Part shown: positions 12,793 to 14,204 of the stretch, in pieces | Layout: each line of letters begins with the position of its first letter | Position numbering within the stretch: the first letter of the stretch is position 1 | NCBI GenBank assembly: GCA_943354005.1 | Contig: CALRBE010000008.1 | Span: forward strand, 1-39,227 | DNA length: 39,227 bases | From: an uncultured Candidatus Saccharimonas sp. | Lineage (GTDB): Bacteria > Patescibacteriota > Saccharimonadia > Saccharimonadales > AWTP1-31 | Reading direction: 5' to 3' | Notes under the pieces: model-generated | What the model saw: only the letters and a program-made list of their open reading frames with translations | The model's database searches: none | Told to the model about the DNA's origin: nothing | Program-made: the position numbers and the translations under genes

Positions 12793-12843
12793 AGCATTAG
12801 CATTGTCTACAGTATGTTCATGCGTCGACGATACTCTTTAAGA

Positions 12844-13542
12844 ATGAACTGCTTTTCACCTCCTGTAATGCTGGCGACTGCAATCATTGAAATTAGCTTA
12901 CTAGTATATACCTTATATAAGTATGGTACGAAAAGCATAGGACGACTCGTTGCTTTAATGCTTCTATTACTGGCTATATTTCAAATTGCAGAATATAACA
13001 TTTGCGGCGGATTAGGATTAAACTCTCAATTTTGGTCACGTATAGGATTCATGGTGATTGCCTTACTGCCTCCACTCGGAATACATTTGAGCATGATGAT
13101 AGCAAAGAAGGACATAAAGTGGTTTAGATACACGGCATACCTTAGTGGTCTTATTTGGGTAGCAATATTCGGCTTAAGCGACAGAGCCTTTAGTGGATAT
13201 TCATGTGGCGGTAATTACATGATATTCCAGGTTGGAGAAAACTTTGGGAACGCCTATATGATCTACTACTACTTTTGGTTATTTGCAGCCATAGGGTTAT
13301 CTATATGGTTCATGATTAGAGCAACTAAAAGTCAGATGAAGAGCTTACTCCTGCTGATCATTGGATATCTCTTATTTATAGTACCTACATCTTTAGTAAA
13401 CGGCATTAATCCAACGACCATAGAAGGACTACCTTCTATCTTATGCGGCTTCGCAGTATTTTATGCTCTTGTTATAACATTTGGAATACTTCCCAATGAA
13501 CTTAAGTCTAAAAAACGTACAAAAAAGAAATTGACAAAGTAA
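12844..13542 (+). CDS. Seven-transmembrane sensor-like membrane protein
   Basis: 232 residues from the ATG at 12844; ATG at 12814 would add ten residues including MRRRYSLR. The later start is preferred because GATACT ends 8 nt before it and the protein then begins directly at the first membrane helix, but this is uncertain. About seven hydrophobic helices are separated by short loops, with a basic tail (KSKKRTKKKLTK). The layout recalls the N-terminal 7TM sensor region of some histidine kinases, here without any kinase or output domain. Cys pairs (NICGGLG; YSCGGN) may sit on the outer face. The -35 box of the downstream ncRNA promoter lies inside its final codons. Confidence 0.65.
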   Translation: MNCFSPPVMLATAIIEISLLVYTLYKYGTKSIGRLVALMLLLLAIFQIAEYNICGGLGLNSQFWSRIGFMVIALLPPLGIHLSMMIAKKDIKWFRYTAYLSGLIWVAIFGLSDRAFSGYSCGGNYMIFQVGENFGNAYMIYYYFWLFAAIGLSIWFMIRATKSQMKSLLLLIIGYLLFIVPTSLVNGINPTTIEGLPSILCGFAVFYALVITFGILPNELKSKKRTKKKLTK

Positions 13543-13558
13543 TTAAACCGCTTATGAT
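13531..13558 (+). promoter_or_regulatory. Strong promoter of candidate ncRNA 1
   Basis: TTGACA at 13531-13536, 16-nt spacer, TATGAT at 13553-13558. The predicted transcription start, near 13566, falls exactly at the left edge of a GC-rich hairpin and no ORF follows on this strand. Confidence 0.75.
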
Positions 13559-13565
13559 AGAAGTA

Positions 13566-13680
13566 TCTCGTGCGCACCGCGGCGCGTTCCTTCAAAAACA
13601 AAAACACATGTGATTATCACCCGCCGCAGGGTGGGCGCGCACGAAAAAAATAAAATCCCGATTCGCTCGGGATTTTTGTT
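13566..13680 (+). ncRNA. Candidate structured non-coding RNA, about 115 nt
   Basis: A GC-rich island in AT-rich DNA with its own promoter and terminator. The ends pair as TCGTGCGC (13568-13575) with GCGCACGA (13637-13644). Inside, GCGGCG can pair with CGCCGC, with small bulges, or CACCC with GGGTG as an alternative hairpin. The central loop is unstructured and CA-rich (TTCAAAAACAAAAACACA) and begins with TTCCTTC, which is complementary to Shine-Dalgarno-like GAAGGA. It contains none of the signature sequences of SRP RNA, tmRNA, RNase P or 6S RNA that I know. A trans-acting regulator is one possibility; function is unknown. Confidence 0.6.
13652..13680 (+). terminator. Bidirectional Rho-independent terminator
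   Basis: Ten-base-pair stem AAAATCCCGA/TCGGGATTTT with loop TTCGC, flanked by T-runs on both strands. It ends candidate ncRNA 1 on the plus strand and probably the kinase/methyltransferase unit on the minus strand. Confidence 0.85.
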
Positions 13681-13715
13681 ATTTCTTCCTACTTGGGGCA
13701 ACTAAGAAACTATTA

Positions 13716-14204
13716 CTAATCTTGAATTATGACTTTCTCGTTTTCGTTATTGGGCTCTTCAAAAATAGCTATTCTTTTATCCAGAATATCAGGAGTAATT
13801 ATAAAATTATTTCCTTTTTCAATATCTGCTCGACGGTTTAATCTCTCCAACAGCAAAGCTCTACTGGCCTTAAGGTATATTAATTGCATTTCAGCACCAT
13901 TACTTTCAACGAGATCTCTAAAATACTCCCGATCCCTCTTTTTCCGTACGCCGAAATCAAGTACGACCGATTGACCATTTCTTATATTCTCAACGATTTT
14001 CGATTTTATTATTTCCATAACGTTTGATTTATATTCATTACGTTTCTCAGTAGGGTAGTCAATACCAGCTACTCCATATCGTTTGATCATCTCATCGTCA
14101 ATCGAGAGAGATAGTGCTCCTTGTTCATCTACAATTTTTTTTGCATACGTTGTTTTCCCTGAACCGGGTAGTCCGCACAATAAATAAACGATCGCATGTT
14201 TCAT
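13716..14204 (-). CDS. P-loop kinase-like ATPase (AAA_33 type)
   Basis: 162 residues. Walker A is LLCGLPGSGKTTYAKKI (about 8-24). LSIDDEMIKRYG near 33-44 is the typical Asp-containing strand after the lid helix, and GQSVVLDFGVRKKRDREYF near 77-95 carries the Walker B-like Asp. RALLLERLNRR contains lid arginines. The family includes polynucleotide-kinase-like, chloramphenicol-phosphotransferase-like and zeta-toxin-like proteins acting on small molecules or RNA ends; the substrate is not evident. It lies 8 nt after the methyltransferase gene on the same strand and is probably in one unit with it. Confidence 0.8.
   Translation of the reverse strand: MKHAIVYLLCGLPGSGKTTYAKKIVDEQGALSLSIDDEMIKRYGVAGIDYPTEKRNEYKSNVMEIIKSKIVENIRNGQSVVLDFGVRKKRDREYFRDLVESNGAEMQLIYLKASRALLLERLNRRADIEKGNNFIITPDILDKRIAIFEEPNNENEKVIIQD

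Follow-up and report, generated by a model that had tools for sequence, protein, structure and literature searches.

Structured RNAs that are present in single copy almost throughout a bacterial order are few, and they usually have central functions, as do rRNA, RNase P RNA, tmRNA, SRP RNA and 6S RNA. The window, i.e., the whole stretch of 39,227 nucleotides analyzed here, contains a predicted RNA (13565..13682, + strand) which resembles bacterial SRP RNA (4.5S RNA, RF00169) in being a single-copy RNA of housekeeping type, about 80–115 nt in length and with a closing stem; unlike SRP RNA, it lacks the GGAA-capped domain IV motif and does not match RF00169, and Ffh was not found in relatives of the host. 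With 6S RNA (RF00013) it shares the arrangement of stem, internal loop and stem and the location in an independent gene, but it is less than half the size, is not matched by the covariance model, and has a large A-rich apical loop. A closing stem combined with a large single-stranded loop is also the layout of Y RNA and YrlA (RF02553), which belong to the RNP type; the new RNA resembles them in this respect, but shows no match to RF02553. Like the orphan RNAs of Rfam (LOOT, OLE, raiA and similar RNAs, whose functions are unknown or were found only lately), it has a conserved structure and was discovered by comparative genomics, but there is no match to them in sequence or structure. LOOT RNA (RF03000, 75.5 bits) is encoded by a separate gene near the new RNA in one genome of family f35 (L059:297-414, – strand).

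It is nearly certain that the locus is a real, uncatalogued ncRNA gene and that a family of such genes exists. A sequence-only reading of the region had proposed a new ncRNA gene with promoter, structure and terminator, and the proposal was confirmed by homologs in many families. The sigma-70-type promoter TTGACA-16-TATGAT (13531..13558, +), with the -35 box TTGACA at 13531–13536 and, after 16 nt, the -10 box TATGAT at 13553–13558, matches the consensus in 11 of 12 positions and is the top one of three promoter-like matches in 2.5 kb (shuffles: 8.4 matches scoring at least 9/12). The -35 box overlaps the final codons of the ORF that precedes it (12814–13542). The RNA is predicted to comprise about 80 bases, or about 115 nt including the terminator, its start and end (13565..13682) being deduced from promoter and terminator. 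The intrinsic terminator with the 10-bp stem that had been claimed is located at 13652..13676 (+) and is followed by a T tail on both strands; since it is T-rich on either side, it can probably also end the convergent gene at 13716–14204 (–). That gene codes for an AAA_33/zeta-toxin-like small kinase. As the sequence-only reading had stated, there is no ORF on this strand, none of at least 60 aa being present on the + strand between 13543 and 13728. The minimum free energy of the fold is -40.9 kcal/mol, as compared to -30.0 ± 3.3 kcal/mol in shuffles (z = -3.3); without the terminator, z is -2.0. Promoter and terminator are kept in the homologs: a promoter score of at least 8/12 was found upstream of 60 of 77 homologs (about 16 expected from shuffles), with the end of the -10 box mostly 8–11 nt 5' of helix P1, and an intrinsic terminator follows within 70 nt in 55 of the 77 (shuffles: 1.1).

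Helix P1 is formed by TCGTGCGC (13568..13575, +) and GCGCACGA (13637..13644, +), which pair perfectly over 8 bp, in agreement with the earlier claim that the ends form such a helix. A second helix, P2, formed by GCGGCG (13579..13584, +) and CGCCGC (13622..13627, +), had been overlooked, as had the strand GGGTGGGC (13629..13636, +) that joins P2 to P1. In divergent homologs, whole helices are swapped. P1 occurs, e.g., as CGTGCGC/GCGCACG, CGGGTGT/ACACCCG, GGTACGC/GCGTAGC and CGCGCAG/CTGCGCG, and P2 as GCGGCG/CGCCGC, GCGACTTTAAA/TTTAAAGTCGC, GGCTCTTT/AAAGAGCC and GGGGTAC/GTGCCCC. In alignment A6 (66 sequences), 13 of the 14 pairs of P1 and P2 show changes on both sides, with 126 double-change cells vs. 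32 in shuffles (0/500) and a covariation score of 0.44 vs. 0.14; the slid controls collapse. Because alignment A6 was fitted to the covariance model, both helices were retested without fitting. For P1, a MAFFT alignment blind to structure showed changes on both sides in 7 of the 8 pairs (41 cells vs. 12). P2 was assessed by an alignment-free helix score, exchanging 5' and 3' halves among homologs; the score was 17.9, as compared to 13.2 ± 0.3 in the permuted sets and a maximum of 14.2 in 2000 permutations. Compensatory changes together with strong conservation in relatives were what the sequence-only reading had suggested looking for. With 38 G-U vs. 4 A-C cells on the + strand, this strand is therefore the sense strand of the RNA. 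RNAalifold preferred a local hairpin when applied to alignment A3 of close relatives, because P2 hardly varies among them; comparison of the diverse homolog set settles P2. In family f35, the one sampled most often, a single position of P1 is mismatched, and the helix is lengthened by GC/GC. In genera g54 and g87 (L130–L134), the RNA is enlarged to about 110 nt and has one more hairpin, CCACT..AGTGG, as well as a block of conserved sequence, GCGGATTAAAACAAACCAATGTGCCCC. Model R1 had included a further pairing of pseudoknot type, P3 (CACCC/GGGTG, around the 3' strand of P2); only 31 of 77 homologs can form it, and it was considered optional.

The joining strand between P2 and P1 is almost invariant: 76 of 77 homologs have GGTGGGC, and 72 of them have GGGTGGGC. 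The A/C-rich apical loop (13585..13621, +; window copy CAAAAACAAAAACA), delimited from homolog alignments, contains AAAYAAA in 75 of the 77 homologs (9.2 expected from the same loops shuffled) and contains it at least twice in 40 homologs (0.25 expected). Loop length differs widely among homologs, and no other seed is conserved. The sequence-only reading had suggested a trans-acting RNA that recognizes Shine-Dalgarno sites through TTCCTTC at the beginning of the loop (13587–13593). This heptamer is confined to the genus of the window, with its three genomes, and was found in 1 of 77 representatives; GG(G)UGGGC and AAAYAAA are the unpaired elements that are kept. A role in trans is possible in general, whereas action of TTCCTTC on Shine-Dalgarno sites is unsupported. 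Complementarity of the loop and of the G-rich strand to 16S and 23S rRNA was no better than that of shuffles.

The window derives from a genome of Ca. Saccharibacteria, the name borne by its close homologs. A blastn search with a query of 131 bases yielded matches of 91–96% identity in the genus of the window and of 74–97% over shorter stretches, mostly centered on CACCCGCCGCAGGGTGGGCGCGCACG, in numerous other families of the order. With covariance models built in succession, matches were obtained in 129 of 393 (R1), 134 of 295 (R2) and 257 of 295 (R3) genomes of the order, the 295 being those with at least 90% completeness, and the RNA was nearly always present in a single copy. The 38 of 295 genomes without a match to R3 may reflect loss or divergence. 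Among 380 genomes sampled across the phylum, 30 genomes of the order matched, and there were two matches in other classes. Both are weak and were judged to be due to chance: L128 lies on the strand opposite the beginning of a dnaK-like gene and does not have the paired AAAYAAA loop, and L129 is partial. As sampled, the family is thus confined to this order (Saccharimonadales by record names). Exact matches in Actinobacteria and Myxococcota are probably due to chance, the pattern being GC-rich, and a search of viral contigs with one exact 17-mer gave no match.

In 40 of 65 loci, ligA is located within 1.3 kb upstream on the same strand. The genes between or behind ligA and the RNA vary (HisKA_7TM-like protein, rdgB-like, tRNAs, Mur-ligase-like), and upstream and downstream neighbors and their strands differ between families, the downstream gene being partly convergent. 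Retention of the position relative to ligA, with other neighbors varying, is consistent with vertical inheritance of an independent gene and not with a cis element. At 16 loci of family f35, a gene coding for an RRM protein lies divergently about 160–440 nt upstream of the RNA. A small RRM protein gene is present in 57 of 61 genomes of the order, usually in single copy (G000:C9:267-476 in the host genome). It was not found in G040 and G060, both of which have the new RNA, and the protein was therefore rejected as an obligate partner.

Searches of Rfam 15 identified only tRNAs in the window and, with a lax threshold over the locus, nothing credible (E up to 5); likewise, no family matched the new RNA at 20 homolog loci. 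That the RNA cannot be matched to 6S, SRP, RNase P or tmRNA, as had been stated, was upheld. The host genome encodes tmRNA (L169:8267-8671, –, 81 bits) and RNase P RNA (L189:9261-9606, –, 253 bits) at other loci, so the new RNA is neither of these. A scan of all but about 30 kb of this genome detected rRNA, tmRNA, RNase P RNA, an L10 leader and tRNAs, and within this scope neither SRP RNA nor 6S RNA. The 23S rRNA gene of the host (contig C1, L175:3598-7543) spans 3946 nt, compared with a model of 2925 positions; an intron or insertion of roughly 1 kb is the probable reason. Among 21 relatives (G000–G020), with positive controls, SRP RNA (RF00169) and the Ffh M domain (PF02978) were detected in none, and the SRP54 GTPase domain (PF00448) gave nothing above the cut-off. 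The SRP domain IV signature AGG..GGAA..AGCAG has no consistent site in the new RNA. A disguised SRP RNA was rejected, since RF00169 and Ffh were not found in 21/21 relatives and the signature is missing. RF00013 did not match at the new RNA, and 6S RNA was undetected in 20 of the 21 relatives. The remaining one, G008, has a weak, full-length 6S-like match (L107, G008:C51:16563-16716; 32 bits, E = 2.7e-5), seen in this relative only; Saccharibacteria may thus have a diverged 6S RNA instead of none.

On this basis, we favor, with some reservation, a trans-acting RNP RNA of housekeeping type, about 80 nt plus terminator, which would be ancestral to Saccharimonadales and is nearly universal there. 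P1 and P2 would stack to form a rigid stem that serves as a scaffold and presents two binding sites, the G-rich strand and the A-rich loop. At these elements, GG(G)UGGGC and AAAYAAA, the RNA would contact a conserved partner, which is most likely either a protein or a larger RNP; the molecule would act within an RNP and not like an antisense RNA that relies on a single seed. However, the only RNA-binding protein gene seen adjoining the RNA is the RRM gene of f35 that two genomes seem to lack, and the composition of the loop could also allow pairing with U-rich targets. Alternatively, and as a generalized version of the sequence-only proposal, the RNA might be a base-pairing regulatory sRNA, whose loop or G-rich strand would pair with mRNAs and alter translation: an own promoter and terminator, the unpaired loop and the position in trans suit such an RNA, and U-rich leaders could be paired by the conserved AAAYAAA. 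However, two separate invariant elements and near-universality in single copy are untypical of regulatory sRNAs, and the proposed seed TTCCTTC is specific to one genus, the loop varies widely in length, and pairing to rRNA does not exceed that of shuffles. Because only the A-rich box is kept as a seed and because the RNA is nearly universal, we regard a base-pairing regulator as rather unlikely.

A functional analog of 6S RNA that binds RNA polymerase, with P1, joining loop and P2 imitating a promoter bubble, would account for the layout of stem, internal loop and stem and would fit the failure to detect 6S RNA in most relatives. However, the RNA is much too small to form two long arms, its internal loop is small and one-sided, there is no 6S match, and G008 has its separate 6S-like candidate, making this explanation improbable. 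In a similar vein, the RNA might replace the missing SRP RNA in a lineage-specific targeting particle, given that SRP RNA, Ffh M domain and SRP54 GTPase went undetected in 21 genomes, in which a single-copy RNA of housekeeping type is present instead. We consider this very unlikely: the domain IV signature is wholly missing, and other CPR bacteria, in which the new RNA was not found, commonly do without SRP, whose loss has been described in Parcubacteria (PMC4508563) and in many CPR lineages (PMC8080830). An equally slim chance is assigned to a cis element, that is, a 3' UTR or leader of an adjoining gene. The RNA does lie 20–100 nt behind the upstream gene in many loci, but it has its own promoter and terminator, neighboring genes and strands change between families, and the next gene in the window is convergent; a leader or riboswitch would be expected to precede the same gene on the same strand, and the downstream genes vary. 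Finally, nothing except conservation speaks for a small protein gene or a repeat instead of an RNA, whereas the lack of an ORF, loop indels of any length, covarying helices whose G-U pairs lie on one strand and the occurrence of one copy per genome render this explanation negligible.

In the main texts of the open-access literature, no description of this RNA was found. It is a new RNA family without known relative, and the claim of novelty refers to the family. It belongs to no Rfam family, and its two nearly invariant elements have been kept through deep divergence. The host group has cultured members, and genetics of Saccharibacteria has been published (PMC10633639), rendering the function of the RNA directly testable. 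It is conceivable, though we put this forward tentatively, that it is a core RNP RNA restricted to Saccharimonadales, without counterpart in any other bacteria, and that it serves an essential housekeeping function in ultrasmall epibionts lacking SRP and a recognizable 6S RNA. If so, it would function, e.g., on the ribosome, on RNA polymerase or in protein targeting.
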